64,000 bases of DNA from Azonexus sp. (GTDB lineage Bacteria; Pseudomonadota; Gammaproteobacteria; Burkholderiales; Rhodocyclaceae), in the NCBI GenBank assembly GCA_017983755.1, contig JAGOAU010000002.1:62001-126000 (forward strand), read 5' to 3'. Position numbers and translations under genes: made by a program. This document shows, piece after piece, positions 28,253 through 61,519 of the stretch. The notes under the pieces were generated by a model. That model had not been told where the DNA came from. It made no database searches and saw only the letters and a list, made by a program, of their open reading frames with translations. Within the stretch, counting starts at the first letter, position 1. The number at the start of each line of letters is the position of its first letter.

Positions 28253-28283
28253 CCTGTTGCGGTCGACCGCATTTTTTTTGGCA
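28253..28283. repeat. Dispersed GTCGAC-core repeat, copy A
   Basis: Core GCGGTCGACCG at 28259-28269, preceded by CTGTT and followed by an 8-T run and GGC. It lies in the 64-bp spacer between the RND pump and the YeeE/YedE-type gene. Confidence 0.7.
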
Positions 28284-28289
28284 AAAACC

Positions 28290-29369
28290 ATGGATCTCAA
28301 CAGCCTCACCGAATTGCTGGGTGACAAGACGACGATCGCGCTCGCCGGCCTGATCGTCGGCGTACTGTTCGGTATCTGCGCCCAGCGCTCGCGCTTCTGC
28401 CTGCGCTCGGCGGTCGTCGAATTCTGGAACCGGCAAGGCACTGCAAAACTGGCCATCTGGCTTTTCGCCTTCTCCTCAGCCATCGTCGCCACCCAGCTAT
28501 TCATCACCCAGGGCTGGCTCGACGTCGGCCAGGCGCGCCAGCTTTCGGCGGCCGGCAGTCTCTCCGGTGCCCTCGTCGGCGGCCTGCTGTTCGGCATCGG
28601 CATGATCCTGGCGCGTGGCTGCTCGTCACGCATGCTGGTGCTCGCCGCCAACGGCAACCTGCGCGCCCTGCTCACCGGGCTGATCTTCGCGGTCACCGCC
28701 CAGGCCTCGCTGAGCGGCGTACTATCGCCGGCCCGCACCTGGATTTCCGGCCTGTGGACCATCGAAGGCGGCGCCGCCCGCGACCTGCTCGCCACCTTTC
28801 ACCTCGGCCACTACGGCGGCCTTGTCTTCGGCCTCGTCTGGCTCGCCACCGCCATCCATTTTGCCCAGCGCGCCCGGATTAGCCGGCGCGAGTGGCTGGG
28901 CGCCGTCGGCGTCGGCATCATGATCGCCCTCGCCTGGCTGCTGACCTACCGGATCGGTTCGCAGTCCTTCGAGATCGTCCCGGTGCAGAGCCTCAGCTTC
29001 ACCGGCCCGTCGGCCGACATGCTGATGCTCGTCCTGTCACCCCCCGGCCAGCCCTGGGATTTCGACATCGGCCTGGTGCCCGGAGTCGTCCTCGGTTCCT
29101 TCCTCGCCGGGCTGTGGGGCAAGGAACTCAAACTGGAAGGCTTCAAGGACGGCCACAGCATGCGCCGCTACATCGCCGGCGCGCTGTGCATGGGTTTCGG
29201 CGGCATGCTGGCCGGCGGCTGCGCGGTTGGCGCCGGCGTCTCCGGCGCCTCGGTCTTCGCCCTCACCGCCTGGCTGGCGCTGATCGGCATGTGGCTGGGC
29301 GCCGGCCTGACCGACCGCTGGGTCGACCGGCCGCAGCGCTACCAGGAAAAGCAGGCCCTCCAGACCTGA
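28290..29369 (+). CDS. YeeE/YedE family membrane transporter (possible sulfur compound uptake)
   Basis: The 359-residue protein has about nine to ten hydrophobic segments. Conserved family cysteines are visible: GICAQRSRFC (C30, C37), ARGCSSR (C111) and AGGCAVGAG (about C311). In the E. coli thiosulfate importer YeeE (TsuA), cysteines in such positions relay thiosulfate through the membrane. The start is the ATG at 28290; an earlier in-frame start lies inside the repeat and is unlikely. No TusA/TsuB partner gene is adjacent. The neighbouring sox cluster makes sulfur transport plausible, but the substrate is inferred. Confidence 0.85.
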   Translation: MDLNSLTELLGDKTTIALAGLIVGVLFGICAQRSRFCLRSAVVEFWNRQGTAKLAIWLFAFSSAIVATQLFITQGWLDVGQARQLSAAGSLSGALVGGLLFGIGMILARGCSSRMLVLAANGNLRALLTGLIFAVTAQASLSGVLSPARTWISGLWTIEGGAARDLLATFHLGHYGGLVFGLVWLATAIHFAQRARISRREWLGAVGVGIMIALAWLLTYRIGSQSFEIVPVQSLSFTGPSADMLMLVLSPPGQPWDFDIGLVPGVVLGSFLAGLWGKELKLEGFKDGHSMRRYIAGALCMGFGGMLAGGCAVGAGVSGASVFALTAWLALIGMWLGAGLTDRWVDRPQRYQEKQALQT

Positions 29370-29525
29370 ATCGCAGAGGTTTCGGGAAGCCTGGGCACAG
29401 CGCTGCCACGGGTCATGCGATATGATTTGCCTGTCTGCACCGGACTTTCCCGTAGCACCCCGCATCCGGCTCAAGCCCGGCGGTCGCACCGTGAAGCAAC
29501 CACCAAACCGTTTCCACTCCTCCCA

Positions 29526-30380
29526 ATGGCCAGCTCCGTTCACTACCTGCTTGATACCAATGCCGTCCTGCAAGAGCCGGAAGTTCTGGCGGCGGCCCGC
29601 CAGCGCAAGCTGCTCATCCCCAAATCGGTCCTCGCCAAGCTCGCGACGCTGAACCGCGAGCACAGCCGCAAGGTCGTCGGTGCGCTGGTTAACGATGCCA
29701 TCGCGGCAGGCGCCGAAGTCGTCGAGACACCGCCGCACATCCACTGCGAACCCCTGGCCGCTGATCTGGCTGCGCATCGGCTGACGCCGAGTGCGATGGA
29801 AGTCGCCCGCACGGCCATTGGTCTGGCCGAGGGCGGCAAGGCAGTCACCGTCGTCACGCTCGACAAGCCACTCGGTAATTTTCTGGCGACACGCAAGATC
29901 CGCTCGCTGCCTCCTGCGGCTTTTCTCGAAGAAGGGAAATCGGAAACTGCGGATGCCGCCCTGCTGACTTCGGCCAAATCCTACGCCGCCGGGCGCAATC
30001 GCTACCTGGCGATCAATGCGACGGTCGGCGTACTCGGCGCGCTGGGGGCCGGCATCGTCTATTTCAACGCCGCCTACCTGCTGAGCACCATCTCGGTCTG
30101 GGGAACGGCCGTCGTCCTGCCGCTGCTCGGCGTGCTGCTGTTCTGGTATCGCCAGCGCTACCGCCTGTCCTACGGCGTGTTCGAGTTCCTGGTCGGCGTC
30201 ATGATGGCCTACTTCGTTTTCCTGCCGTCGTTCGACTTGAAGACGCTGGGCGTCATCCAGGGCTTGCAGATTCTTGGCGGCCTGTATGTCATGGTGCGCG
30301 GGCTCGACAACGTCGGCCAGGGCATCGAGGAAGGGACAAGGCTGGAAACCCTCTGGAATCGCCTCTTCGAGGAAGAATAG
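29526..30380 (+). CDS. Membrane-anchored PIN-like domain protein, function unknown
   Basis: The ATG at 29526 gives 284 residues. The first 130 resemble a PIN-type nuclease fold: YLLDTNAVLQ at residues 7-16 supplies the typical first Asp, and VVTLDKPLGN near residue 115 could supply the late acidic position. Residues about 155-265 contain four hydrophobic segments, so the protein is probably held in the inner membrane. The frame is open 37 codons further upstream, but that extension has no family-like features. No antitoxin-like gene is next to it. Nuclease activity is not shown by the sequence alone. Confidence 0.6.
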   Translation: MASSVHYLLDTNAVLQEPEVLAAARQRKLLIPKSVLAKLATLNREHSRKVVGALVNDAIAAGAEVVETPPHIHCEPLAADLAAHRLTPSAMEVARTAIGLAEGGKAVTVVTLDKPLGNFLATRKIRSLPPAAFLEEGKSETADAALLTSAKSYAAGRNRYLAINATVGVLGALGAGIVYFNAAYLLSTISVWGTAVVLPLLGVLLFWYRQRYRLSYGVFEFLVGVMMAYFVFLPSFDLKTLGVIQGLQILGGLYVMVRGLDNVGQGIEEGTRLETLWNRLFEEE

Positions 30381-30403
30381 GCCTGGACCGGCGCGACGAG
30401 CCG

Positions 30404-30439
30404 AAAAAAAGCCCGCCGGAGCGATCCGACGGGCTTTTT
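30404..30439. terminator. Bidirectional terminator between convergent genes
   Basis: GCCCGCCGGA and TCCGACGGGC form a 10-bp stem with one mismatch and a GCGA loop, flanked by an A-run and a T-run. It serves the PIN-like gene (plus) and the sox operon end (minus). Confidence 0.88.
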
Positions 30440-30452
30440 GGCTTCGCGGGGT

Positions 30453-31073
30453 TCAATGCGGGAAATACATCTTCGCCTTGTCCAGCTTGTAGGTCCACGG
30501 CAAACCGGCATTCTTCCAGCCGTTGACCGTGCGCTGGCCGGCCTTGGGGCCGTCCTTCGCGGTATCGCCCTCGACGCCCTCGGTGATGCTGTAGACGCGC
30601 GTGAAGCCGGCCATCTGCAAACGATCCTGCGCCTTGGAGCTGCGGTCGCCGGAGCGGCAAATCAGGATCACCGGCGCATCCTTGCCGAGGCCCATTTCCT
30701 TCATGCGGCGCTCGATTTCCGGCACGAAATCCTGGTTCGGTTCGAGCTTGTACATGAAACGCTTGTCGTCCCAGTCGCTCATGATTTCCGGGTGTTCGAC
30801 GAAAGGCACGAGCGCGTCGGCATCGCCCGGCCAGCCGACGTACATGGCTTCGGCCCGGGTACGGACGTCGAAGAAGGCGACCCCTTTCGGGTCCTTTTTC
30901 TTCATGTCATAGGCCTGCTGTGGCGTCAGGTAGAGTGCCAGCTTGCTGCGTTTGACTTCCGGCAGGGCGGCCCAGTCGGTGCTGCCCGGCGCCCAGTCGG
31001 CGGCGTTGGCGAAGGTGGCGGCGAACAACAGGCCGCCCACCAGCAGCGGCTTGCGAAAAACGTTCTTCATCAT
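30453..31073 (-). CDS. Secreted rhodanese-domain protein at the end of the sox operon
   Basis: The 206-residue protein has an N-terminal signal peptide (residues 1-24, ending FANA) and one rhodanese domain. The active-site loop is CRSGDRS with Cys139, expected to carry a persulfide. It starts with ATGATG at 31073, overlapping the soxB stop by 4 bp, so it is the last cistron of the sox operon. A periplasmic sulfurtransferase could handle sulfane sulfur released during thiosulfate oxidation; this role is inferred from position. Confidence 0.88.
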   Translation of the reverse strand: MMKNVFRKPLLVGGLLFAATFANAADWAPGSTDWAALPEVKRSKLALYLTPQQAYDMKKKDPKGVAFFDVRTRAEAMYVGWPGDADALVPFVEHPEIMSDWDDKRFMYKLEPNQDFVPEIERRMKEMGLGKDAPVILICRSGDRSSKAQDRLQMAGFTRVYSITEGVEGDTAKDGPKAGQRTVNGWKNAGLPWTYKLDKAKMYFPH

Positions 31074-32791
31074 GCCATCCCCGGATTGTTGTCGACGCCC
31101 TTTAGCTTCGGCAGGTTGAGGCTGACCGGCTTGACCGTCTTGATGTCGCGCAGGTAGGTGGCGACGACGTCCCAGATCGGCTCGCCGGCGTTCTTCGCCT
31201 CTTCGGAAACCGGCGCCCAGCCGGCGACCTTGTAGGTCTTCGCCGGGTCGATCGGCTGCCCCTTGAGCATCATGTTCTGGATGCGCGCGCCCATCTTGGC
31301 AGTCGGGTCGCAGGTGTATTGCAGGCCGCCGACGCGCACCATGTCGCCGCCCTGCTGGTAATACGGATCGGGGTTGAAGAGGTTGTCGCAGACGTCTTCG
31401 AGCACGGTCTTGATCATCTCGCCGCTCATGTTGGTCACCGTCGTCCACGGATAGGTGATGGCGGTCTGGTCAAGGACGTGCTCCATCAGGATCGGCTGCC
31501 CCGGGAGCAGCGAGGTGCCCCAGCGGAAGCCGGGCGAGAAGGCGATTTCGGCGTCCTTCACTTTCATCAGCGCGTCGAGGATGACCTGGTCGAAGGTGCC
31601 GTTGAAGTTGCCACGACGGAACAGCGTGCCTTCGGTAACCGCCAGCTTTTCGTTGAGCTTCGCCAGGTAGGGCGCACGCGCCTTGTCGATCAGCGCCTGC
31701 ATCGCCTTGTCGGCCGGCAAGAGGTTGGCGAAGACCGGCAGCAGCTTGTAGCGGAAGTCGGCGACCTTGCCGTTCTTCACGTCGAAATCGAGGACGCCGA
31801 GGAACTTGCCGTTGGAGCCGGCGTTGGTGACCAGCGTCTGGCCGCCGGGGTTCTTGACGACGACCGGCGCCGGCACCCCGTCGTGGGTATGGCCGCCCAT
31901 GATGGCGTCGATGCCCTTGACCCGGCTGGCCATCTTGAGGTCGACGTCCATGCCGTTATGCGACAGGACGACGACGACCTGGGCGCCGGCGCTGCGGGCT
32001 TCGTCCACGGTCTTCTGCATGTTGTCTTCCTGGATGCCGAAGCTCCAGTTCGGCGTCTGCCAGCGCGGATTGGCGATCGGCGTGTAAGGGAAGGCCTGGC
32101 CGATGATGGCCACCGGCACGCCATTGATCTTCTTCATCACGAATGGCTTGAACACGGCATCGCCGAAATCGGTGGTCTTGACGTTCTGGGCGACGATGTC
32201 GATCTGGCCGGCAAAATCCTTTTCCTCGATTTCCTTGACCCGCGCTTCGCCGTAAGTCGATTCCCAGTGCAGGGTCATGACATTGACGCCGAGCGCCTTG
32301 CAGGCATCGACCATGTCCTGCGCGTTGCTCCACAGCGCGGTGCCGGAACCCTGCCAGGTGTCGCCGCCATCGAGCAACAGGGCGCCCGGGCGATTGGCCT
32401 TCATGCGCTTGACCAGCGTCGCCAGGTGGGCAAAGCCGCCGACCTTGCCGTAGGTCTCGGCGGCCTTCTCGAAATTGAGGAAGGTGAAGGCGTGCGCGTC
32501 GAGGGTGTCGGGCTTGATGCCGAAGCGCTTGAGGAACGCGTTGCCGACCAGGTGCGGCACCTGGCCGAACTGGTCGCCGAAGCCGAGATTGACGTTCGGC
32601 TCGCGGAAGTAGATCGGCAGCAACTGGGCATGGCAATCGGTGATATGCAGCAGGCTGACGTTGCCGAATTTCGGCAGGTCGTACATCTTCGCCGCGCCTT
32701 TTTCAGCCAGCGCGAAATCACTGTGCAGCGACATGCCGCCGGCGGCGGCGACAGCCATGACCTGGAGAAACTCCCGACGATTCATGCTCAT
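31070..32791 (-). CDS. soxB: Sulfur oxidation protein SoxB (thiosulfohydrolase)
   Basis: The dimanganese enzyme hydrolyses the sulfate group from the SoxY-bound S-sulfonate. From the ATG at 32791 it has 573 residues; two other in-frame ATGs lie close by, but this one has AAGGA with a 6-base spacing. The N-terminus carries a Tat signal (NRREFLQVMAVAAAGG). Metal-binding motifs of the calcineurin-like domain are visible: ITDCHAQ, LLDGGDTWQG, HWESTYGE and GGHTHDG. A C-terminal 5'-nucleotidase domain follows. It lies between soxX and the rhodanese gene. Confidence 0.97.
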   Translation of the reverse strand: MSMNRREFLQVMAVAAAGGMSLHSDFALAEKGAAKMYDLPKFGNVSLLHITDCHAQLLPIYFREPNVNLGFGDQFGQVPHLVGNAFLKRFGIKPDTLDAHAFTFLNFEKAAETYGKVGGFAHLATLVKRMKANRPGALLLDGGDTWQGSGTALWSNAQDMVDACKALGVNVMTLHWESTYGEARVKEIEEKDFAGQIDIVAQNVKTTDFGDAVFKPFVMKKINGVPVAIIGQAFPYTPIANPRWQTPNWSFGIQEDNMQKTVDEARSAGAQVVVVLSHNGMDVDLKMASRVKGIDAIMGGHTHDGVPAPVVVKNPGGQTLVTNAGSNGKFLGVLDFDVKNGKVADFRYKLLPVFANLLPADKAMQALIDKARAPYLAKLNEKLAVTEGTLFRRGNFNGTFDQVILDALMKVKDAEIAFSPGFRWGTSLLPGQPILMEHVLDQTAITYPWTTVTNMSGEMIKTVLEDVCDNLFNPDPYYQQGGDMVRVGGLQYTCDPTAKMGARIQNMMLKGQPIDPAKTYKVAGWAPVSEEAKNAGEPIWDVVATYLRDIKTVKPVSLNLPKLKGVDNNPGMA

Positions 32792-32870
32792 GTTCATTCC
32801 TTGAAATTGAAATTTCGGCGAAGCCGAAAAAATGCCCGGCCAGTTTCCCGGCCGGGCCAATCACGCAAGT

Positions 32871-33524: not shown

Positions 33525-33534
33525 CGTCATCCCC

Positions 33535-34350: not shown

Positions 34351-34380
34351 TTCAACTCCTCCGGGGATTGGAAGCGGCGG

Positions 34381-34415
34381 CTGCGGTCGACGCCGCCTTG
34401 CCGCCGTTTTTCAGC
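34381..34415. repeat. Dispersed GTCGAC-core repeat, copy G (degenerate)
   Basis: CTGCGGTCGACG at 34381-34392 followed by a GCC-rich stretch, GTTTTTCAGCC and the soxZ stop. It lies in the soxZ-soxA spacer inside the sox operon. Read in soxZ sense it matches copies B and C in arrangement. Confidence 0.5.
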
Positions 34416-34417
34416 CA

Positions 34418-34732: not shown

Positions 34733-34768
34733 GTAAATCTCCTTGAATTCTTTGAAAGTCGGGACCGC

Positions 34769-35258: not shown

Positions 35259-36311
35259 TTACTTGGCACCGGCCATGATCCACTGCACCAGTGTCTTGAT
35301 GTCTGCATCCTGCAAATGCGCGTTCGGCGGCATCGGCACTGAGCCCCAGACGCCCTGGCCGCCGTTCTTGACCTTGGCCACGAGGCGGCTTTCCGCATCC
35401 GGCTGGTCCTTGTAGCGGGCCTGCACCTCGTTGTAGCCGGGGCCGACGATCTTGTTGTTGACGCCGTGACAGGCCATGCAGCCGTTCTTGGTCGCCAGCT
35501 CCAGGGCCGGATTCGCTGCCGCGGCCGCCGGGGCGGCGGCTGCTGCACCGAGCGTCCTGGTGCCGCGTACCGGGCCGAAGGAACGGTTCTGGTCGGCCAG
35601 TTCGCCGTGCGCCGTACGCGCGTAGTCCGGCAGGGTAGAGCCGATCTGGACTTCGCTCTTGCAGTTCTTCATGCACGCCTTGTTGCTGGTGTCCGGCTTG
35701 CCGCCGTTGCCGATGCCACCTTTGGCGGCCGAGGCGCCCGGCCACATGCCGTGGTCGGTGGTCATGCCGTCGCGGTTGGGCAGTATTTTCTGGATATCGG
35801 CGATGTTCTTGTCAGAGAGCACGAAGTCGCTCGGCACCATTTCCGACAGGTTGAGCATGTAGGCGAGGATGGCGTAGACCTCGTCCGGCTTCAGCGACTT
35901 CGGCGCCGTCCACGGCATGGCGCGCTGGATGTAGTCGAATACCGTCGAGATCGTCGCCACCTTGGTGAAGGTCGTGCGCTGCGGCAGTTCGCCGGACGAC
36001 AGGCCCTTGACGCGGCCGGTCTTCATGTCGTCCTTGGTGGTGCCGCCAACCAGCGGCGTGAACACCTCGTTCGACTCGCCGAAGGTGCCGTGGCAGGAGG
36101 CGCATTTTTCCTCGAACAGTTCCTGGCCCTTGTCCACCGAACCCGATCCCTTGGGCAGGCCCTTGAAGTCGGGGCGGACGTCGATGTCCCAGGCCTTCAC
36201 TTCGGCCGGCGTCGCCTGGCGGCCGACGCCCTTGAAGTTGTCGAAGGCGACGGCTGCGGTCGACGCCCCGAAAAGGGCCAAAACGAGAATGGTCTTAGAG
36301 AACCTGAACAT
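35259..36311 (-). CDS. soxD: Sulfur dehydrogenase cytochrome subunit SoxD
   Basis: The 350-residue periplasmic protein has a signal peptide (residues 1-22) and two c-type haem sites: CASCH (70-74) and CMACH (278-282). The haem domains are joined by an Ala/Pro-rich linker (about 255-267). A CMKNC pair (213-217) in the middle is not a haem motif. With SoxC it removes six electrons from the SoxY-bound sulfane sulfur, allowing full oxidation of thiosulfate to sulfate. Its start lies 17 bp inside the end of soxC. Confidence 0.95.
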   Translation of the reverse strand: MFRFSKTILVLALFGASTAAVAFDNFKGVGRQATPAEVKAWDIDVRPDFKGLPKGSGSVDKGQELFEEKCASCHGTFGESNEVFTPLVGGTTKDDMKTGRVKGLSSGELPQRTTFTKVATISTVFDYIQRAMPWTAPKSLKPDEVYAILAYMLNLSEMVPSDFVLSDKNIADIQKILPNRDGMTTDHGMWPGASAAKGGIGNGGKPDTSNKACMKNCKSEVQIGSTLPDYARTAHGELADQNRSFGPVRGTRTLGAAAAAPAAAAANPALELATKNGCMACHGVNNKIVGPGYNEVQARYKDQPDAESRLVAKVKNGGQGVWGSVPMPPNAHLQDADIKTLVQWIMAGAK

Positions 36312-38511: not shown

Positions 38512-39789
38512 ATGATGCTCATGAAAAGACGTGATTTCCTGAAGGCCGGCGCGGCAGCCGGTGCCATGGCCTCCCTCTACGGCTGCGCCGGCGGCGGCAA
38601 GGCCAGCGGCCATGTCGTCGTGGTCGGCGGCGGCTACGGCGGCGCGACGGTCGCCAAGTACCTGCGCATGTGGAGCGAGGGCGGCGTCCAGGTAACGCTG
38701 ATCGAACGCAACCCGACCTTCATCTCCTGCCCGATCTCCAACCTGGTCATCGGCGGCACCAAGACCATGGAAGACATCACCGTCAGCTACGACGGCCTCA
38801 AGAACAAGTGGGGCGTCCGCATCATCCAGGACGACGTGGTTGCGGTCGACGCCGCCAAACGCTCGATTTCGCTCGCCAAGGGCGGCGCCATGACCTACGA
38901 CCGCCTAGTGCTGTCGCCCGGCGTCGATTTCATGTGGGACCAGATTCCCGGCCTCAACAACGCCGCCGCCCAGGGCAAGATCCTGCACGCCTGGAAGGCC
39001 GGCCCGCAGACCATCGCCCTGCGCAAACAGCTGGAAGACATGAAAAACGGCGGCGTCTACGCCATTTCGATTCCCAAGGCGCCCTACCGCTGCCCGCCCG
39101 GACCCTACGAGCGCGCCTGCCTGGTCGCCGATTATTTCAAGAAGAACAAGCCGAAATCGAAGGTAGTCATCCTCGACGCCAACGAGGACGTGATGTCCAA
39201 GAAGGGGCTGTTCACCAAGGCGTGGACCGACCTTTACAAGGACATCATCGAGTACCGCAACAATAGCGAGGTCAAGGACGTCGACGTCAAGACCAACACC
39301 GCCGTCCTCGAATTCGACAAGTTCAAGGCCGACGTGCTGAACGTCATCCCGCCGCACCGCGCCGGCGACATCGCCGCCAAGTCCGGTCTCAAGCTGATCA
39401 ACAACCGCTGGGTGGACATCAACTGGCTGTCGATGGAAGTCAACGGCACGCCGGGCGTGCATGTCATCGGCGATGCGATCTTCCCGGCGCCGACCATGCC
39501 GAAGTCCGGCCACATGGCCAACCAGCACGGCAAGCTGGCCGCCGCCGCCATCCTCAACATGCTCTCGGGCATGGAGCCGAGCCCGACGCCGGTGGTCATG
39601 AACACCTGCTACAGCTTCGTCGATGCCAAGCAGGCGATCCACGTCGCCTCGGTGCACCAATACGATGCAGCGACCAAGGTCGTGCAGCCGGTCAAGGGCG
39701 CCGGTGGCGTCTCCGCCGCGCGCAGCGAACTGGAAGGCAAGGTCGCACTGGGCTGGGCAAAGAACATCTGGGCCGACATGCTGGCCTGA
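38512..39789 (+). CDS. fccB: Flavocytochrome c sulfide dehydrogenase flavoprotein subunit (SoxF)
   Basis: The 425-residue protein has a Tat signal (MKRRDFLKAGAAAGAM), a dinucleotide-binding motif VVVGGGYGGAT and a late FAD contact HVIGDAI. Cysteines in SCPISN and YRCPPGP match the redox-active pair of FccB. It would oxidise sulfide to sulfur or polysulfide in the periplasm, passing electrons through the cytochrome encoded just upstream. In sox clusters this protein is called SoxF. Confidence 0.93.
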   Translation: MMLMKRRDFLKAGAAAGAMASLYGCAGGGKASGHVVVVGGGYGGATVAKYLRMWSEGGVQVTLIERNPTFISCPISNLVIGGTKTMEDITVSYDGLKNKWGVRIIQDDVVAVDAAKRSISLAKGGAMTYDRLVLSPGVDFMWDQIPGLNNAAAQGKILHAWKAGPQTIALRKQLEDMKNGGVYAISIPKAPYRCPPGPYERACLVADYFKKNKPKSKVVILDANEDVMSKKGLFTKAWTDLYKDIIEYRNNSEVKDVDVKTNTAVLEFDKFKADVLNVIPPHRAGDIAAKSGLKLINNRWVDINWLSMEVNGTPGVHVIGDAIFPAPTMPKSGHMANQHGKLAAAAILNMLSGMEPSPTPVVMNTCYSFVDAKQAIHVASVHQYDAATKVVQPVKGAGGVSAARSELEGKVALGWAKNIWADMLA

Positions 39790-42504: not shown

Positions 42505-42543
42505 CCGCCTGAAAATCGGCCTTTTTTGGCCGTCGACCGCCAC
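42505..42543. repeat. Dispersed GTCGAC-core repeat, copy B
   Basis: CGCCTGAAAATCGGCC, a T-run, then GGCCGTCGACCGCCAC. The core is at 42530-42540. It fills the 42-bp spacer between the convergent soxW and AEC transporter genes. Confidence 0.75.
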
Positions 42544-42545: not shown

Positions 42546-43436
42546 TCAGCGCAACACCAGCACCAGCGCCAGCGGCAGGAAGAGCAGCGCCGCCAGGTTG
42601 CCGATCAGCACGATGGAGGCCACCCGTTCCGGCTCCTGCTTGTAACGCTCGGCGAAGAGGAAGTTGAGCACCGCCGGTGGCAAGGCGCCGAACACCAGCA
42701 GCATCGCCGCCTCGCGCCCCTGCAGGCCAAGCAGCTGGATGACGCCGGCGGCGATCAGCATGCCGGCAATCGGCCGCAGCAGCGCGCTGCCGGTTGCCAC
42801 CTTCCATTCCTTGAAGGAAACGTCGGTCATGCGCACGCCGAGCGAGAAAAGCAACAGCGGCACCGAAACATCGCCGAGCATCTTAATGGCGATGACCAGC
42901 GGCTGCCAGACGGGAATTTTCAGCAGCGCTACGGCCAGCCCGGCGATTGCGGCGGCGACCACCGGCACGCGCCACAGCGTCAGCAGGCGCGCGTGCGGAT
43001 CGAGCAGCCGGGCGCCGAAGGAGAAATGCAGCGTGTTCTCGACCATGAACAGGATCACCGCCGCCGGCAAGGCCTCCTCGCCCCAAGCCAGCACGGCGAG
43101 CGGCAGGCCGATGTTGCCGGAGTTGTTGAACATCATCGGCGGCGCCAGCGTCTTCGGCTGGATGCCGATCAGCTTCGCCAATGGCCAGGCGAGCAGACCG
43201 CAGGTCGCCAGCACGAGGAAGCCGCCGAGGGCCAGCGGCGCGTAGGCGGCGAGGTCGAAGGACTTGCCGGCCATCGCCGCGAAGACCAGCGCCGGCACGA
43301 AGACATCCATGTTCAGCCGGTTGGCGACCGCCATCTCCGGCTTGTGATGGCGGGCATAGAAGTAGCCGGCGGCGACGATCCCGAAGATCGGGAAGAGAAT
43401 GGCGACGAGCCGAAAGCTCAGGCTCTCGCCACTCAC
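42546..43436 (-). CDS. AEC family membrane transporter
   Basis: The 296-residue protein has ten predicted hydrophobic segments with the inverted-repeat pattern of auxin efflux carrier family proteins. Characteristic pieces are [17 protein letters not shown] and the C-terminal [23 protein letters not shown]. The substrate is unknown. It starts inside the hslU stop (4-bp overlap) and is last in the STAS-hslV-hslU-AEC operon, an uncommon linkage. Confidence 0.9.
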
Positions 43437-44782
43437 AGCACGTAGCGCGACAGATCTTCGTCGGCTGCCAGCTCGCCAAGGCGGCCGTTGACGTAGGCGG
43501 CGTCGATGGCGACTTTTTCCTGACCGGCCTTGCCGGCGTCGAAGGAGATTTCCTCGAGCAGCTTTTCCATCACCGTATGCAGGCGACGGGCGCCGATGTT
43601 CTCGGTCTTCTCGTTCACCTGGAAGGCGATCTCGGCCAGCCGCTTGATGCCCGCCTCGGCGAACTCGATATGCACGCCTTCGGTTTCCAGCAACGCCTGA
43701 TACTGCCGAGTCAGGCAGGCATCGGTCTGGGTCAGGATGCGCTCGAAATCGGCGACCGACAGCGAATCGAGTTCGACACGGATCGGGAAACGGCCCTGCA
43801 ATTCGGGGATCAGATCCGATGGCTTGGACAAATGGAAGGCCCCGGAAGCGATGAACAGGATGTGGTCGGTCTTGATCATGCCGTACTTGGTCGACACCGT
43901 CGTGCCCTCGACCAGCGGCAGCAGGTCTCGCTGTACGCCCTGGCGCGAGACGTCGGCGCCCTGCATCTCCGAGCGGCTGGCGATCTTGTCCAGCTCGTCG
44001 AGGAAGACGATGCCGTTCTGCTCGACCGCCTTGACCGCTTCCAGCTTGACCTCCTCGTCATTGACCAGCCGGGCGGCCTCCTCGTCGGTCAGCAGCTTCA
44101 GCGCTTCCTTGATCTTCAGCTTGCGCGATTTCTTGCGCCCCTGCCCCATGTTCTGGAACATGCCCTGAATCTGCTGGGTCAGCTCCTCCATGCCGGGCGG
44201 CGCGAAGATTTCCGCCTGCATCGACGGGGCGGCCAGCTCGATATCGATTTCCTTGTCGTCCAGCTCGCCTTCGCGCAGCTTCTTGCGGAATTTCTGGCGC
44301 GTGGCACCATCGGTTGCGGTCGACTCCGAATTTTCGGCAAAAAAGCCGGGGCTGCGTGCCGGTGGCAACAGCACGTCGAGCACACGCTCCTCGGCGGCAT
44401 CCTCGGCGCGGGTGCGCATCAGCTTCATCGCCCGTTCGCGGTGCGACTTGATCGCCATTTCGACCAGGTCGCGGATGATCGTCTCGACATCGCGGCCGAC
44501 GTAGCCGACTTCGGTGAACTTGGTCGCCTCGATCTTGATGAACGGCGCGTTGGCCAGCCGCGCCAGACGGCGGGCGATCTCGGTCTTGCCGACGCCGGTC
44601 GGGCCGATCATCAGGATGTTCTTCGGCGTAATCTCCTGGCGCAGCGGCTCGGCCACCTGCGCCCGCCGCCAGCGGTTGCGCAGGGCGATGGCGACTGCCT
44701 TCTTGGCGTTGTTCTGGCCGACGATGTGCTTGTCCAGCTCGTGGACGATTTCCTGCGGCGTCATCGAACTTCCAGCACTCAT
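43433..44782 (-). CDS. hslU: ATP-dependent protease ATPase subunit HslU
   Basis: The 449-residue AAA+ unfoldase supplies substrates to HslV. Walker A is GPTGVGKTE, Walker [11 protein letters not shown], and the pore motif region GYVGRDVE is present. The C-terminus LSRYVL matches the tail that docks on HslV. The insertion (I) domain contains a loop whose DNA resembles the dispersed repeat (44311-44347). The start at 44782 overlaps the hslV stop by 4 bp; a second ATG at 44764 is also possible. Confidence 0.97.
44311..44347. repeat. Repeat-like copy inside hslU
   Basis: CGGTTGCGGTCGACTCCGAA, TTTTCGGC, an A-run and GCC resemble the intergenic repeats. It encodes a stretch in the variable loop of the HslU I domain around [10 protein letters not shown]. 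It could be an in-frame insertion or chance similarity. Confidence 0.4.
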
Positions 44783-50355: not shown

Positions 50356-50392
50356 CTGCGGTCGACGGTCAAAAACGGGCGATTTTCAGGCG
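50356..50392. repeat. Dispersed GTCGAC-core repeat, copy C
   Basis: GCTGCGGTCGACGGTC, AAAAACGGGC and GATTTTCAGGCG. Core at 50358-50368. It contains the stop codon of the DUF2946-like gene and occupies most of the spacer before the porin gene. Confidence 0.75.
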
Positions 50393-50676: not shown

Positions 50677-51870
50677 TTAATCGACCTGGACGAGCAGGCC
50701 CTTCAGATATTCGCCTTCCGGAAAATTCAGCGCCACCGGATGATCGGCGGCCCCGGCCAGCCGGCGCACGATGCGCGCCGCGCGGCCGGCATCGTGCGCG
50801 GCGCCGGCGACGATCTTCTGGAACAGTTCCAGCCCGATGCCGCCGGAACAGGAGTAGGTCATCAGCAAGCCACCCGGCTTGAGCAGCCGGCAACCGAGCA
50901 CGTTGATGTCCTTGTAGGCGCGTGCGGCGCGCTCGGCGTGGGCGGCCGACGGCGCGAACTTGGGCGGATCGAGGACGATCAGGTCGAACTGCCGGCCGTC
51001 CTTGCGAAAATCGCGCAGCGCCTGAAAGACGTCGGCCTCCCGCCAGCTAGCGCGGTCGGCCGGCAAATGCGGATTGAGCGCCAGATTGGCCTGCGCCTGC
51101 GCCAGCGCCGGACCCGAGGAGTCGATCGACAGCACGCTGGCCGCGCCGCCGGCCAGCGCCTGCAGCGAAAAGCCGCCGGTGTAGCAGAAGCAGTTGAGAA
51201 CCTCCTTGCCCGCGGCCAGCTGGCCGAGCAAGGCGCGGTTGTCGCGCTGGTCGAGGTAGAAACCGGTTTTGTGGCCGCCGACGATGTCGACCGCAAGCCG
51301 GACGCCGTTTTCCTCGATCGTCAGCGCTGCTGCCGGCGCCTCGCCGTGCAGCCAGCCGGTGGTCGGTTCCAGCCCTTCGAGGCCGCGCACGTCGGAGTCG
51401 GAACGCTCGTAGATGCGGGCACAGCCGGTCGCCTTGACGAGACCGGCGACGATGGCCTTGCGCCACTTGTCGGCGCCGGCCGAGGTCAGCTGGACGACGA
51501 CGGTGTCGCCATACTGGTCGGCGATGACGCCGGGCAGCCCGTCCGATTCGGCGTGGATCAGGCGCAGGCCTGACTGGCCGCGCAGCTCCGGCAGCGCCTG
51601 GCGGCGTGCCACGGCGGCCGCGATGCGGCGCTTGAAGAAGGCGTCGTCGACCGATTCCTCGACATCGAAGGTCCAGAAGCGGGCGCGGATCTGCGATTGC
51701 GGGCTGTACGCCGCGCGGCCCAGCGGACGCAGGTTGTCGGCCAGCACCTCGACCGTGTCGCCCGGCCGAGCACGGCCTTCGAGCCGACCGACCGAGCCGG
51801 CGAAAAGCCACGGATGATGCTGCTTGAACGCGGAGCGTTCCTTGCCCGGCAGAAGAATCAGCTGCGCCAT
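50677..51870 (-). CDS. rlmI: 23S rRNA (cytosine-C5)-methyltransferase RlmI
   Basis: The 397-residue protein starts at ATG 51870 (MAQLILLPGKERSAF). An N-terminal PUA-like domain (HPWLFAGSVGRLEG) is followed by a SAM-dependent methyltransferase domain with FCYTGGFSL, DLIVLDPPKFAPS and the cysteine in YSCSGGIG. It methylates C1962 of 23S rRNA in E. coli. The start lies 21 bp beyond a terminator, so it has its own promoter or depends on readthrough. Confidence 0.92.
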   Translation of the reverse strand: MAQLILLPGKERSAFKQHHPWLFAGSVGRLEGRARPGDTVEVLADNLRPLGRAAYSPQSQIRARFWTFDVEESVDDAFFKRRIAAAVARRQALPELRGQSGLRLIHAESDGLPGVIADQYGDTVVVQLTSAGADKWRKAIVAGLVKATGCARIYERSDSDVRGLEGLEPTTGWLHGEAPAAALTIEENGVRLAVDIVGGHKTGFYLDQRDNRALLGQLAAGKEVLNCFCYTGGFSLQALAGGAASVLSIDSSGPALAQAQANLALNPHLPADRASWREADVFQALRDFRKDGRQFDLIVLDPPKFAPSAAHAERAARAYKDINVLGCRLLKPGGLLMTYSCSGGIGLELFQKIVAGAAHDAGRAARIVRRLAGAADHPVALNFPEGEYLKGLLVQVD

Positions 51871-51890
51871 GTCTTTCCCCACCTCAAATG

Positions 51891-51923
51891 AAAAGCCCCG
51901 GCTGCCTTGCGGCAACCGGGGCC
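51891..51923 (-). terminator. Intrinsic terminator after the 50-residue basic protein gene
   Basis: GCCCCGG/CCGGGGC with an inner TGCC/GGCA extension and a GCAA loop form a strong stem. On the minus strand it ends in four T. It lies 19 bp after the small gene's stop. Confidence 0.82.
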
Positions 51924-51941
51924 CGATGAAACCGAAAAAGC

Positions 51942-52094
51942 TTAGGCGCCCAGTGCCTTGCGATTGCGGGCGTGGCACTCGGCGGCGTAGATGACCTTGA
52001 ACATGGTCTTGCCGGTTCCCTTGAACAGGCGCTTGCTGGACTTGGAAATGCTGCGGCGCTCCAGGGACGAACGGCGGGTGCGGTTGATAGCCAT
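51942..52094 (-). CDS. Unrecognised 50-residue strongly basic protein
   Basis: The frame runs from ATG 52094 to TAA at 51942. It starts MAINRTRRSSLERRSISKSS and ends CHARNRKALGA. It has 8 Arg, 6 Lys and only 2 Glu, so a net charge near +12, suggesting binding to nucleic acid or the ribosome. AAGGAG lies 6 bases before the ATG, a near-consensus promoter lies 40-68 bp upstream, and a strong terminator follows. The protein is not S20, L36 or Sra as I know them. It is a short monocistronic gene that length cut-offs would miss. Function unknown. Confidence 0.8.
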   Translation of the reverse strand: MAINRTRRSSLERRSISKSSKRLFKGTGKTMFKVIYAAECHARNRKALGA

Positions 52095-52133
52095 GACTAA
52101 CTCCTTGATTCCGGCGAATTTTCAAAACCGCCA

Positions 52134-52162
52134 ATCATAGTGGCTGGCAGCACCGGCGTCAA
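52134..52162 (-). promoter_or_regulatory. Promoter of the 50-residue basic protein gene
   Basis: On the minus strand TTGACG (52162-52157) and TATGAT (52139-52134) are separated by exactly 17 bp. Transcription would start about 33 bp before the ATG. Confidence 0.72.
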
Positions 52163-52165: not shown

Positions 52166-52206
52166 CCGTCTGATTTTCGGCCATTTTCGACGGTCGACCG
52201 CAACCG
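52166..52206. repeat. Dispersed GTCGAC-core repeat, copy D
   Basis: CCGTCTGATTTTCGGCCATT, TTCGACGG and TCGACCGCAACC. The core is at 52191-52201. It lies between the xerC stop and the promoter of the small basic protein gene. Confidence 0.75.
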
Positions 52207-52207
52207 G

Positions 52208-54622: not shown

Positions 54623-54651
54623 AGGATAGCAGAGACAGATGCTTGTCTCAA
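54623..54651 (-). promoter_or_regulatory. Likely promoter of dapF-DUF484-xerC
   Basis: On the minus strand TTGAGA (54651-54646) and TATCCT (54628-54623) are 17 bp apart, about 27 bp before the dapF ATG. A small GAGACA/TGTCTC dyad lies between them. Confidence 0.5.
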
Positions 54652-54655
54652 ATTC

Positions 54656-56879: not shown

Positions 56880-56918
56880 GCTGCCCCGGGGGTTGAAACC
56901 CGCCGTGAAAAGTCTATT

Positions 56919-56947
56919 ATTATCGCTTCGCCGAGTTAAACAGACAA
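56919..56947 (-). promoter_or_regulatory. Promoter of the acyltransferase operon
   Basis: On the minus strand TTGTCT (56947-56942) and GATAAT (56924-56919) are separated by 17 bp, about 40 bp before the ATG at 56879. Confidence 0.6.
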
Positions 56948-56991
56948 CTTGCAGGGCGATTTGCATAAATACTGCTAAAGCGTCACCGCTC

Positions 56992-57027
56992 GTGGTCCGA
57001 AGCAGGTACGCCGGATCAAAGGACCAC
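56992..57027 (+). promoter_or_regulatory. Hairpin in the metK leader
   Basis: GTGGTCC (56992-56998) and GGACCAC (57021-57027) form a perfect 7-bp stem around a 22-base loop. The stem ends 1 base before the GGAG ribosome binding site of metK. I do not recognise a known SAM riboswitch class here. Confidence 0.5.
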
Positions 57028-57038
57028 TGGAGCAATTC

Positions 57039-58202
57039 ATGAGCGATTACCTCTTCACCTCCGAATCGGTTTCCGAGGGCCATCCCGACAAGGTCGCCGA
57101 CCAGATTTCCGACGCCATCCTCGACGCCATCCTGTCCCAGGACAAGCATTCGCGCGTCGCCGCCGAGACCCTGTGCAACACGGGGCTGGTCGTGCTGGCC
57201 GGTGAGATCACCACCAACGCCAACGTCGATTACATCCAGGTCGCGCGCGACACGATCAAGCGCATCGGCTACGACAACACCGACTACGGCATCGACTACA
57301 AGGGTTGCGCCGTGCTCGTCGCCTACGACAAGCAGAGCCCGGACATCGCCCAGGGCGTCAATGCTGCCTACGACGACAACCTCGGCCAGGGCGCCGGCGA
57401 CCAGGGCCTGATGTTCGGCTACGCCTGCGACGAGACCGACTCGCTGATGCCGCTGCCGATTTACCTGTCGCACCGCTTGGTCGAACGCCAGGCCATGCTG
57501 CGCAAGGATGGCCGCCTGCCGTGGGCGCGCCCCGACGCCAAGTCGCAGGTCACCATCCGCTACGTCGACGGCAAGCCGCACTCGATCGACACCGTCGTGC
57601 TGTCCACCCAGCACTCGCCCGACATCAGTCTGGAAGATCTGCGCGAGGCGACCATCGAGCAGATCATCAAGCCGGTACTGCCCAAGGAACTGATCAAGGG
57701 CAACATCAAGTACCTGGTCAACCCAACCGGCCGCTTCGTCGTCGGCGGCCCGCAGGGCGACTGCGGCCTGACCGGCCGCAAGATCATCGTCGACACCTAC
57801 GGCGGCGCCGCGCCGCACGGCGGCGGCGCCTTCTCCGGCAAGGATCCGTCCAAGGTTGACCGTTCCGCCGCCTACGCCGGCCGCTACGTCGCCAAGAACA
57901 TCGTCGCCGCCGGCCTCGCCTCGAAGTGTCTGGCACAGGTTTCCTACGCCATCGGTGTCGCCGAACCGACCTCGATCATGATCGACACCTTCGGCACCGG
58001 CAAGATCAGCAACGAAACGCTGACCGAACTGGTCAAGAAGCACTTCGACCTGCGTCCGAAGGGCATCGTCAATATGCTCGACCTGCTGCGCCCGATCTAC
58101 CAGAAGACCGCCGCCTACGGGCACTTCGGCCGCGACGAGCCGGAATTCACCTGGGAAGCCACCGACCGCGCGCTTCTGCTCAAGTCCGACGCCGGCCTGT
58201 AA
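57039..58202 (+). CDS. metK: S-adenosylmethionine synthetase
   Basis: The 387-residue enzyme makes SAM from methionine and ATP. Motifs are [13 protein letters not shown] near the N-terminus, the loop and ATP-contact region [13 protein letters not shown], and the P-loop-like [19 protein letters not shown]. Length is normal. GGAG lies 6 bases before the ATG, after the leader hairpin. It heads a SAM-cycle block with ahcY and metF, but ahcY has its own leader. Confidence 0.98.
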
Positions 58203-58207
58203 GCCTG

Positions 58208-58254
58208 CCGCGGTCGACCGTCGAAAATTGGCATTTTTCGGCGGTCGACCGCAA
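58208..58254. repeat. Dispersed GTCGAC-core repeat, copy E (double core)
   Basis: Two cores, GCGGTCGACCG (58210-58220) and GCGGTCGACCGC (58241-58252), flank GAAAATTGGCATTTTTC, itself a short inverted repeat. It lies between the metK stop and the ahcY riboswitch. This is the most complete copy. Confidence 0.8.
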
Positions 58255-58283
58255 CAGCCCCGTCCCGGGGCGAAAAACCGGTT

Positions 58284-58289
58284 TATAAT
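58284..58289 (+). promoter_or_regulatory. -10 box upstream of the ahcY riboswitch
   Basis: A perfect TATAAT lies about 10 bp before the predicted aptamer, consistent with transcription starting at the riboswitch. No good -35 box is visible. Confidence 0.55.
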
Positions 58290-58298
58290 CCGCAACGT

Positions 58299-58355
58299 AC
58301 CGAGGAGCGCTGCAGGGGAAGGTTCCCTCAGGCTCGGTTTCAAACCGCGCTCACC
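58299..58355 (+). ncRNA. S-adenosylhomocysteine (SAH) riboswitch in the ahcY leader
   Basis: The segment has the hallmark SAH riboswitch pieces in order: CCGAGGAGCGCTGCA, then CAGGCTCGG, then GCGCTCACC. CCGAG pairs with CTCGG and GAGCGC with GCGCTC. Downstream, GGTGAGC (58386-58392) could pair instead with GCTCACC (58348-58354), enclosing a CCCGTGC/GCACGGG hairpin, and may form the expression platform. SAH riboswitches raise ahcY expression when SAH builds up. Position before ahcY fits exactly. Confidence 0.88.
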
Positions 58356-58438
58356 TATCAACCCCGTGCCGGGCACGGGATGTCGGGTGAGCCGAATTTG
58401 CCCCGTCCCTCCCGGCCACAGTTCATCAGGAGCTTACT

Positions 58439-59839
58439 GTGGCTGAATTCAAAGATTACGTCATCGCCGATCTTTCCCTTGCCGACTGGGGTCGCAAGGA
58501 AATCCGCATTGCCGAAACCGAAATGCCTGGCCTGATGGCCATTCGCGAGGAATTCGCGAAGAGCCAGCCGCTCAAGGGCGCGCGCATCACCGGCTCGCTG
58601 CACATGACCATCCAGACCGCCGTGCTGATCGAGACGCTGACCGCACTCGGCGCCGAAGTCCGCTGGGCCTCGTGCAACATTTTCTCGACCCAGGATCACG
58701 CTGCTGCCGCGATCGCCGCCGACGGCATCCCGGTCTTCGCGGTCAAGGGCGAAACCCTGGTCGATTACTGGGATTACACCCACCGCATCTTCGAATGGGC
58801 CGACGGCGGTTACTCGAACATGATCCTCGACGACGGCGGCGATGCCACCCTGCTGCTGCACCTCGGCGCCAAGGCCGAGAAGGACATCTCCGTGCTGGCC
58901 AAACCGGGCTCGGAAGAAGAAACCATCCTCTTCGCCGCCATCAAGGCCAAGCTGGCCATCGATCCGAGCTGGTACTCCGTGCGCCTGGCCGCGATCAAGG
59001 GCGTCACCGAGGAAACGACCACCGGCGTGCATCGCCTGTACCAGATGCACCAGCGCGGCGACCTCAAGTTCCCGGCCATCAACGTCAATGACTCGGTGAC
59101 CAAGTCCAAGTTCGACAATCTCTACGGCTGCCGCGAATCGCTGGTCGACGGCATCAAGCGCGCCACCGATGTGATGATCGCCGGCAAGGTTGCCGTGGTC
59201 TGCGGCTACGGTGACGTGGGCAAGGGCTCGGCCCAGGCGCTGCGCGCCCTGTCGGCCCAGGTCTGGGTCACCGAAATCGACCCGATCTGCGCGCTGCAGG
59301 CCGCCATGGAAGGCTACCGCGTGGTGACCATGGAATACGCCGCCGACAAGGGCGACATTTTCGTCACGACGACCGGCAACTTCCACGTCATCACGCACGA
59401 CCACATGGCGGCCATGAAGGACCAGGCCATCGTCTGCAACATCGGCCACTTCGACAACGAAATCGACGTCGCGTCGATCGAGAAGTACCAGTGGGAAGAG
59501 ATCAAGCCGCAGGTCGATCACGTCATCTTCCCGGACGGCAAGCGCATCATCCTGTTGGCCAAGGGCCGCCTGGTGAACCTCGGCTGCGGCACGGGCCATC
59601 CGTCCTACGTCATGTCCTCGTCCTTCGCCAACCAGACCATCGCCCAGATCGAGCTGTTCACCCGCACCGCCGAGTACCCGGTCGGCGTTTACACGCTGCC
59701 CAAGCATCTCGACGAAAAGGTTGCCCGCCTGCAGCTCAAGAAACTCAACGCCCAGCTGACGACGCTGCGTCCCGACCAGGCCGCCTACATCGGCGTGCCC
59801 ATCGAAGGCCCGTACAAGGCCGAGCATTACCGCTACTAG
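58439..59839 (+). CDS. ahcY: S-adenosylhomocysteine hydrolase
   Basis: The 466-residue NAD enzyme splits SAH to homocysteine and adenosine, preventing product inhibition of methyltransferases. The NAD-binding motif is [11 protein letters not shown], with TGNFHVIT and the C-terminal KAEHYRY also typical. Length fits the form with the 40-residue insertion found in many bacteria. The start is a GTG with AGGAG 6 bases upstream. An SAH riboswitch lies in the leader. Confidence 0.98.
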
Positions 59840-59854
59840 GCAAGCCGACCGGCG

Positions 59855-60676
59855 ATGAGCATGAACTCCTTCCACGCGCGGCAGAAAAAGCCGCGCCCCG
59901 CAGCCCAACCGGCCCACGAACGGCCGGCCGGCATGCTGCGGGCGGATGCCCTGCTCGTCGCCCAGAAGCTCGCACCATCGCGCACGGCAGCGCAATGGCT
60001 GATCAAGGAAGGCCGGGTCAGCTGGGCCGGCGGTCCGATTACCAAGCCGTCTCTGGAATTACCCGAAGCAACGCCGTTGACCGTAGCCGCCGACCCGGAG
60101 GCTCATTTCGTTTCGCGCGGCGGCCTCAAGCTTGCCGGCGCCCTGGCGAAGACCGGATTGGCGGCTGGCGGCAAGGTTTGTCTCGATGTCGGCCAATCGA
60201 CCGGCGGCTTCACCGACTGCCTGCTGCAGGCCGGTGCCCGGCACGTGGTCGGCGTCGATGTCGGCCACGGCCAGTTGCATCCGCAACTGCGCTGCGATCC
60301 TGCCGTCACTGCCATCGAGGGCGTCAACTGCCGCGCCCTGAGCCGCGCCGACCTAGGCAGTGCCTTTCCGCCCGGCGGCTTCGACCTGATCGTCGGCGAC
60401 GTGTCGTTCATTTCGCTGACGCTGGTCCTGCCGCAACTGCCTGCGCTCCTGGCTGATGACGGCGACCTCCTGCTGCTGGTCAAGCCGCAGTTCGAAGTCG
60501 GACCCGGCAACATCGGCAAGGGCGGCATCGTTCGCGACCCCGCGCTGTACCACGACGTCGAATCGAAGCTGCGCCGATGCGCCGAAAACCTCGGTCTGGC
60601 CGTCCGCGCCTGGCTCGACAGCCCGATCACCGGTGGCGACGGCAACCGCGAATTCTTCATCTGGTTGAAAAAATGA
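59855..60676 (+). CDS. tlyA: TlyA family RNA methyltransferase
   Basis: The 273-residue protein has an N-terminal S4 RNA-binding domain (MLRADALLVAQKLAPSRTAA and FVSRGGLKL) and an FtsJ-type SAM-dependent methyltransferase domain with CLDVGQSTGGFTDCLLQAG. TlyA proteins 2'-O-methylate rRNA. The first 26 residues are basic and proline-rich; the family usually starts nearer Met27, so the start is uncertain. The gene lies between ahcY (15 bp) and metF (4-bp overlap), sharing SAM-cycle regulation. Confidence 0.88.
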   Translation: MSMNSFHARQKKPRPAAQPAHERPAGMLRADALLVAQKLAPSRTAAQWLIKEGRVSWAGGPITKPSLELPEATPLTVAADPEAHFVSRGGLKLAGALAKTGLAAGGKVCLDVGQSTGGFTDCLLQAGARHVVGVDVGHGQLHPQLRCDPAVTAIEGVNCRALSRADLGSAFPPGGFDLIVGDVSFISLTLVLPQLPALLADDGDLLLLVKPQFEVGPGNIGKGGIVRDPALYHDVESKLRRCAENLGLAVRAWLDSPITGGDGNREFFIWLKK

Positions 60677-61497
60677 AACCCGAAATCTCCATCGAATTTT
60701 TCCCGCCGCAAACGCCGGAAGGCGTCGTCAAGCTGCGCACCGTGCGCGCCAGGCTGGCCGAACTGAAGCCGGCGTTTTTCTCGGTCACCTTCGGCGCCGG
60801 CGGTTCGACCCGCGAGCGCACCTTTTCCGTAGTCAAGGAAATCGCCGCCGAAGGCTTCGATGCCGCGCCGCATCTCTCCTGCATCGGCTCGACCCGGGCC
60901 AGCATCCGCGACATCCTGGCCGACTACAAGGCAGCCGGCATCCGCCGCATCGTCGCCCTGCGCGGCGACCTGCCCTCGGGCATGGCCGAGACCGGCGAAT
61001 TTCGCTACGCCAACGAGCTGGTCGAATTCATCCGCGCCGAAACCGGCAACTGGTTCAGCATCGAAGTCGCCGCCTACCCGGAATGGCACCCGCAGGCACG
61101 CAGCCCGAAGGACGATCTCGACGCCTTCGCGCGCAAGGTCAAGGCCGGCGCCAACTCGGCCATCACCCAGTATTTCTACAACGCCGATGCCTACTTCAGC
61201 TTCGTCGACGAAGCGCAGGCCCTCGGCGTCTACGTGCCGATCATTCCCGGCATCATGCCCATCGTCGGCTTCACCAAACTGGCCCGCTTCTCCGATGCCT
61301 GCGGCGCCGAAATCCCGCGCTGGATGCGGAAGAAGTTCGAGAGCTACGGCGACGATGCCGACTCGATCCGTGCCTTTGGCCTGGATGTCGTTACCGAACT
61401 GTGCGAACGCCTGCTCCAGGGCGGCGCTCCCGGCCTGCACTTCTATTCGATGAACCAGTCGGCGCTGACCACGGAAATCTGCCGCCGCCTCGGCTGA
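60673..61497 (+). CDS. metF: Methylenetetrahydrofolate reductase
   Basis: The 274-residue flavoprotein makes 5-methyltetrahydrofolate for methionine synthesis. Signatures are ISIEFFPPQTPEG at the N-terminus, VTFGAGGSTRERT, ALRGDLP and ITQYFYNADAYFSFVD. The ATG at 60673 overlaps the tlyA stop by 4 bp. It closes the metK-ahcY-tlyA-metF block: homocysteine from AhcY plus methyl-folate gives back methionine. Confidence 0.97.
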   Translation: MKPEISIEFFPPQTPEGVVKLRTVRARLAELKPAFFSVTFGAGGSTRERTFSVVKEIAAEGFDAAPHLSCIGSTRASIRDILADYKAAGIRRIVALRGDLPSGMAETGEFRYANELVEFIRAETGNWFSIEVAAYPEWHPQARSPKDDLDAFARKVKAGANSAITQYFYNADAYFSFVDEAQALGVYVPIIPGIMPIVGFTKLARFSDACGAEIPRWMRKKFESYGDDADSIRAFGLDVVTELCERLLQGGAPGLHFYSMNQSALTTEICRRLG

Positions 61498-61505
61498 AAC
61501 CCACC

Positions 61506-61519
61506 GGTTGCGGTCGACA
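61506..61519. repeat. Dispersed GTCGAC-core repeat, copy F (partial)
   Basis: GGTTGCGGTCGAC at 61507-61519 region, followed by a terminator instead of the usual second half. It lies after the metF stop. Confidence 0.5.

Follow-up and report, generated by a model that had tools for sequence, protein, structure and literature searches.

A Tripartite Motif in an Azonexus Genome, a Candidate DNA Uptake Sequence

In the passages of the 2006 account by Redfield and colleagues that are drawn on here (PMC1626085), no transformable bacteria beyond the Pasteurellaceae and Neisseriaceae are known to have uptake sequences. The same passages give the uptake signal sequence (USS) of the Pasteurellaceae as AAGTGCGGT (Hin type) or ACAAGCGGT (Apl type), with two 3' A/T segments at roughly single helical turns and without orientation bias; subclade types exist, and an origin by mutation is backed by gap analysis. 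They put uptake-sequence density at one copy per kb in Haemophilus influenzae and Neisseria and count 742 9-mers in the 2.2 Mb of Actinobacillus pleuropneumoniae. The Apl-type 10-mer is ACAAGCGGTC (PMC1626085, PMC12616744), and the portion of a 2025 paper used here (PMC12616744) describes a discontinuous USS architecture, a GCGGT common to both types, and a minor pilin predicted as the receptor. The DNA uptake sequence (DUS) of the Neisseriaceae, GCCGTCTGAA, has no flanking motifs (PMC1626085); in the sections cited of PMC3630211, it forms dialects, is strongly enriched, is missing from some members of the family, and has ComP reported as its binding protein. Here, we report a dispersed motif with the core CGGTCRAC, found in a stretch of 64,000 nucleotides from Azonexus sp. 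(GenBank assembly GCA_017983755.1, contig JAGOAU010000002.1, positions 62,001 to 126,000; hereafter, the window), that is probably an uptake sequence as well.

A preliminary description of the window had noted an intergenic repeat family in at least seven spacers, with a perfect 12-bp palindromic core beside A and T tracts, and had suggested an element like a repetitive extragenic palindrome (REP) or miniature inverted-repeat transposable element (MITE), a protein binding site, or a transcript-end signal; a DNA uptake sequence was not among its suggestions. The tracts were rightly seen as belonging to the pattern. The unit is directional and discontinuous: the core CGGTCRAC is followed, after about 5 bases, by an A tract and, some 6 bases further on, by an A/T tract. 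Its profile (30 rows from 28 different copies, with one palindromic pair entered twice and the copies of loci L062 and L063 left out) reads c(G/T)GTTGCGGTCGAC, five loose bases, AAAA, about six bases (nGGCCn), an A/T tract, and then C; at three tract positions, all 30 rows have A or T. The DNA bearing the motif is 63 to 65% GC (measured in a 300-kb piece of contig C26 of the window's genome), and outside the core and tract columns the copies share little. All seven spacers named there hold the core, some with changes, the palindrome being exact in the window only at 28259 and 58241; the copy at 42529 reads GCGGTCGACGGC (minus strand), and that at 61509 reads TTGCGGTCGACATG. With up to 2 mismatches, the palindrome occurs 24 times in the window against 12.9 expected (0 of 100 shuffles reached 24), and the exact form occurs at 54 places genome-wide (control, 3). 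It recurs because GTCGAC is self-complementary, and it is not the unit.

Across 464 kb of the window's genome (G000; a 2.5-Mb assembly, 74% complete), A/T content peaks at offsets 12 to 16 and 23 to 27 from the first C of the core, about 11 bp apart, and both tracts stand beside 63 of 328 cores versus 0 of 152 reversed cores. Like peaks were found in G020, G064, G099, G031, G023, and the pooled genomes G012, G014, and G033; in four motif-poor genomes, the core had no such peaks beside it (1 of 69 cores with tracts). Coding sequence retains the second tract, which had an A/T fraction of 0.84 in 76 wholly coding 10-mers (drawn from C26, the C15 piece, and the window) versus 0.28 in the reversed-word control.

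The word GTTGCGGTCGAC has 270 copies in the window's genome and its reversed word 3; in the window the counts are 7 and 0, with 0.01 predicted from composition. Such counts, far above expectation, are the opposite of the outcome that the preliminary description had named as its refutation, and they bear out the earlier view of a real family and fit that of a candidate protein binding site. In the C26 piece (picked for its length and, like the G064 stretch, beginning at the contig start), the top-scored 10-mer was TGCGGTCGAC (70 copies versus 3 reversed) and the top 12-mer was GTTGCGGTCGAC (30 versus 0); the k = 8 list was headed by other words, with the motif outside the top ten 8-mers. Perfect copies stood to one-mismatch copies in a ratio of 0.64 (reversed word, 0.06). 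The 10-mer density was about 230 to 260 per Mb (70 in the 300-kb piece and 120 in 464 kb); the regions from C15, C9, and G099 were picked for known copies, so their densities are biased upward. A mutational or compositional by-product, arising from codon-pair or repair bias, would agree with the frame use of the coding copies, which take all six frames unevenly (1, 7, 36, 15, 4, and 13, or 36 of 76 in one frame), a pattern that could come from codon constraint. It sits badly, however, with the rarity of the reversed word, with a tripartite pattern counted 215 times against 0, with tracts at fixed offsets outside genes too, and with core counts that show no enrichment in the four motif-poor members of the genus (69 cores versus 120 reversed), and we give it next to no credence.

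The motif is without orientation bias. Copies of GTTGCGGTCGAC were split 133/137 between the strands of the window's genome (P = 0.86) and 191/193 in the closed genome of Dechloromonas sp. SSB2 (G020; P = 0.96), where forward copies divide into 100 up to 1.744 Mb and 91 beyond it (origin not mapped), with neither unevenness nor a step seen across eight bins of the first 1.74 Mb (chi-square P = 0.19). Hundreds of sites per chromosome, spread on both strands, would also suit a binding site of an intracellular chromosome-organizing or segregation protein (a nucleoid protein, macrodomain, or occlusion factor), for which the A/T tracts could bend DNA. Against this, FtsK-orienting polar sequences (KOPS) and Chi show strand skew, and a replichore orientation skew of that type, looked for in the closed SSB2 genome, was not seen; moreover, the motif is laid out as the USS is, and we know of no chromosome-organizing site built in this way, although no search aimed at one was made.

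Gene calls were made with a codon-model script rather than taken from annotation, and gene and spacer counts for G020 were excluded (coding fraction of 0.73 over 400 kb, perhaps reflecting sequencing errors). Spacers were enriched in the C26 piece, where 22 of 70 10-mers lay in the 12.3% of DNA between genes (P = 2e-5), and to this extent the intergenic label of the preliminary description holds; the other 48 lay in genes, 27 in sense and 21 in antisense orientation, and within the window genes contain copies at 6449, 13999, 36255, 38841, 44315, and 51286, so the family is not confined to spacers. Spacer enrichment is what a transcription-end or other regulatory element of adjacent genes would display, and a facing pair of copies after the S-adenosylmethionine (SAM) synthetase gene (58211 to 58251) folds strongly (−46.3 kcal/mol; z = −6.1). 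However, no U run follows this hairpin, single copies do not form one, and the genic copies fall on both strands and in every frame; the transcript-end suggestion is applicable only to a few inverted pairs such as this one, and as an account of the motif we consider it very unlikely.

Orthologous sites differ by substitution, not insertion. At the site in the window's AAA_2 ATPase gene, presumably hslU, a 66-bp alignment of 30 genomes of the genus, G000 included, was gapless in 18, and the others had gaps of 3 bases (9 genomes), 6 bases (2 genomes), or 1 base (1 genome); G020 and G023 carry the same 12-mer, and the remaining genomes differ by base changes. Over 24 sites, a gap of at least 8 bases was found in 1 of 52 site-genome pairs (28 bases, in G031). 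Compared with random positions, unmatched for spacer or gene, orthologous 10-mers in G020 were identical more often (11 of 12 versus 33 of 168; P = 6e-7), and in motif-poor G034 none of 17 was identical (30 of 166 random positions; P = 0.08). Small gaps within 20 bp were commoner at motif sites than at controls in both G020 (6 of 12 versus 35 of 168) and G034 (5 of 17 versus 19 of 166).

These sites bear on whether the motif is a mobile element of the REP, bacterial interspersed mosaic element (BIME), or MITE type, moved by a Y1 REP-associated tyrosine transposase (RAYT). Dispersal, spacer enrichment, some inverted pairs (58211 to 58251), and a single Y1_Tnp match in the window's genome speak for such an element. 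That match (L302, G000 C17:36000-48000, locus positions 5691 to 6020) has its nearest motif core about 470 bp away. No core lies within 450 bp of it, however, orthologous sites lack the insertions that movement would leave, and 48 of the 70 copies in the C26 piece are genic, on both strands, in contrast to extragenic REP; nothing is shared among copies beyond core and tracts. Y1_Tnp matches occurred in 17 of 40 genomes, G000 included, and the check for a RAYT that the preliminary description had proposed found none in five motif-rich genomes that are 99 to 100% complete (G002, G008, G019, G029, and G030), nor in motif-rich G005, which has 10% contamination. A REP- or MITE-like origin is thus highly improbable.

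The genus of Dechloromonas sp. SSB2, which we take to be Azonexus in GTDB, was sampled with 76 genomes. A degenerate tripartite pattern gave 21 to 404 copies in 43 of them and 0 to 18 in 33, with the reversed control at no more than 2 per genome; beyond the genus, the family was sampled with 285 genomes representing 67 genera, and no genome there had more than 3 copies. A GTDB scan with one strict pattern returned nine stretches (Dechloromonas sp. SSB2, Dechloromonas sp. MAG-194, and a proteobacterium), and one exacting motif pattern was without a match among viral contigs, a result of little weight. On an hslU tree of 30 genomes (16 motif rich and 14 motif poor), presence required 7 changes (bootstrap, 6 to 8), compared with a mean of about 10 in shuffles, 17 to 22 of 500 of which were as low; presence is therefore patchy yet somewhat clustered, with several losses or gains.

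Where the motif is present, dialects vary in the bases 5' to the core and at a single position within it. Within stretches of 20 to 480 kb per genome, TGCGGTCGAC is the form of G000, G020, and G023, AGCGGTCGAC is enriched in G064, CGCGGTCGAC is enriched in G031, and TGCT(G/A)CGGTCAAC is found in G099, with a similar form in pooled G012, G014, and G033. A search for an alternative tag in motif-poor G016, G026, G034, and G021 (about 100 kb each; k = 12) found none that was clear, a search that tags rarer than about 50 per Mb would escape; 12-mers with 5 to 7 copies in G016 and G026 resemble GC-rich coding words, and G021 had none. The motif-poor G034 (C1:1-100000; L126 to L130) also contains five words of the TTTCACGTGGAA type, which to us resemble parS. 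Chromosome-organizing systems are usually conserved across a genus, and both the 33 genomes with few or no sites and the variation of dialects between species count against a site of that kind.

Two further observations concern individual genomes. An 18.5-kb stretch of G000 without the motif and of lower GC content (0.60), at C26:187900-206431 (L239 to L240), encodes a resistance-nodulation-division (RND) efflux set, a heavy-metal ATPase, and a MerR regulator; it looks like acquired DNA, although a single case proves nothing. G023 has two hslU-like copies, at C1:11419-12690 and 3952766-3954112, with 89 and 91% identity to the protein encoded in the window; they lie near both contig ends, and the assembly may be circular with its overlap left untrimmed.

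Given its form and evolution, we think it likely that the motif serves as a DNA uptake sequence, by which cells undergoing natural transformation recognize DNA of their own kind. The CGGTCRAC core would be bound by a receptor at the cell surface, most probably a minor pilin of the type IV system, and the A/T tracts, which both lie to one side of the core with about a helical turn between them, would let the DNA bend or melt, after which it could be pulled in by the pilus and secretin. If tagged DNA were preferentially taken up and recombined, tags would accumulate by point mutation plus recombination, building up in spacers, where the cost is low, and in genes where codons permit, and a lineage that lost the preference would lose its tags. 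Machinery that uptake would need is encoded in the window at 14777 to 19746 (minus strand), where type IV pilus genes specify a secretin (PilQ by gene order), PilP, PilO, PilN, and PilM. A minor pilin of G000 (C23:109261-109740) matches Pfam ComP_DUS above the cut-off and adjoins a FimT-like pilin, and comEC matched above the family cut-off in 31 of 36 genomes of the genus (any match, 35 of 36).

Several results weigh against an uptake function. The density is about one-fourth of that given for H. influenzae and Neisseria (one copy per kb), a typical value rather than a requirement, and copies are not distinctly more regular in spacing than chance would make them (coefficient of variation, 0.97 for forward 12-mers and, in one contig, 0.81 for 10-mers). 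No comEC match turned up in the window's own 74%-complete assembly, and integrity of the gene does not track the motif: as read from the match table with G000 left out, it was intact in 14 of 18 genomes rich in the motif and in 10 of 17 poor in it (P = 0.29). ComP_DUS pilins showed no relation to the motif, being present in 70 of 76 genomes, with G000 and motif-poor ones among them, and G066 (197 copies) and G067 (7 copies) have closely similar ComP-like pilins. The case for uptake is built on the form and evolution of the motif. Presence and absence did not point to a receptor, since neither the ComP_DUS family nor the GspH/FimT family (69 of 76 genomes) separates motif-rich from motif-poor genomes. 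Trees of the 30 best GspH matches and of 21 ComP-like and FimT-like neighbors gave no separation beyond all-positive clades, the largest of which had 7 ComP-like rows. The failure of comEC and pilin state to track the motif would be expected of a chromosome-organizing site, but with its patchiness, dialects, and strand balance also in view, we regard that explanation as unlikely. In three genomes, comEC matches lie in pieces 20 to 41 kb apart (G002 C33:109264-144789, G005 C9:207483-249923, and G018 C8:1064725-1114638), as if mobile elements had inserted in this DNA-import gene; G034 has adjacent comEC fragments.

The window itself holds copies in spacers and genes. In the facing pair, the first arm (58211 to 58238, plus strand; CGGTCGAC core) is a tripartite match downstream of the SAM synthetase gene (57039 to 58202), and the second (58224 to 58251, minus strand; GTTGCGGTCGAC core) uses the same two tracts, which are common to both arms. 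Just past the pair, the DNA that separates the SAM synthetase gene from a gene at 58439 contains an S-adenosylhomocysteine (SAH) riboswitch (58296 to 58359; Rfam RF01057, with 52 bits). Spacer copies with both tracts are found at 52173 to 52200 (minus strand; GTTGCGGTCGAC), 50359 to 50386 (plus strand; GCTGCGGTCGAC), 61511 to 61538 (plus strand; GTTGCGGTCGAC), and, in a convergent spacer, 42512 to 42539 (minus strand; GGCGGTCGAC core). Another GCTGCGGTCGAC copy, in a spacer at 34384 to 34411 (plus strand), has the second tract only, as does, on its plus side, a palindromic double core, GCGGTCGACCGC (28242 to 28287, without assigned strand), that precedes a gene starting at 28284. Among genic copies, that within the 3-dehydroquinate synthase gene (13083 to 14177) has both tracts (13979 to 14006, minus strand). 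Others lie on the plus strand within an AAA_2 ATPase gene, presumably hslU (43433 to 44782; copy at 44317 to 44344), a cytochrome c gene (35259 to 36311; copy at 36257 to 36284), and a flavocytochrome c sulfide dehydrogenase-like gene (38512 to 39789; copy with weak tracts at 38843 to 38870). Core copies with the second tract only were located within a methyltransferase gene (50677 to 52134; copy at 51266 to 51293, minus strand) and an arginase/aminotransferase gene (4547 to 6640; copy at 6451 to 6478, plus strand).

On the same sequence-level grounds, there is a reasonable, somewhat better than even, prospect that this environmental betaproteobacterial genus takes up DNA in a sequence-specific way, as the third lineage to do so, with an uptake sequence of its own that follows the Pasteurellaceae plan of a GCGGTC core and two helically spaced A/T tracts, whether through convergence or because the pilin receptors are of a shared kind; it would have species dialects and have undergone repeated losses within the genus. 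Titles and abstracts among the matches listed, a scope with preprints and most subscription papers outside it, mention no uptake sequence for Rhodocyclaceae, Dechloromonas, or Azonexus. If the reading is true, species dialects would act as barriers to gene flow, and a third independent case would show which features the uptake machine needs (GCGGT and helically spaced tracts) and which are accidental. The motif would also offer a route to transforming organisms described as important in wastewater phosphorus removal, and the 43 tagged and 33 untagged related genomes are material for a receptor search.

Set beside described systems, the motif resembles REP and BIME with RAYT in being dispersed, palindromic looking, and spacer enriched, and differs in occurring also in genes, in being made by substitution, and in having no tie to a Y1 transposase. 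With the Neisseriaceae DUS, as far as the cited sections describe it, the motif shares species dialects, strong enrichment, and absence in some relatives, and a minor pilin of the ComP_DUS family is encoded here; the sequence differs, and the motif has tracts where the DUS has no flanking motifs. The exact words AAGTGCGGT and ACAAGCGGT are absent as consensus, and the consensus here, TTGCGGTCGAC with variants, shares only GCGGT(C) with them; the motif is therefore not the Pasteurellaceae USS itself. Its core runs 3' to CGGTCRAC, so that the first tract starts further out, and its hosts are GC-rich betaproteobacteria (57 to 65% in the stretches seen). The parts of the USS accounts used here nevertheless describe an identical inner GCGGT (with GCGGTC as the end of the Apl 10-mer), directionality, two 3' A/T tracts about a helical turn apart, lack of strand bias, mutational origin, and types varying 5' of GCGGT. 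Although it is neither known word and has a lower density and no clearly even spacing, the motif bears most of the sequence-level marks of a USS-type uptake sequence.

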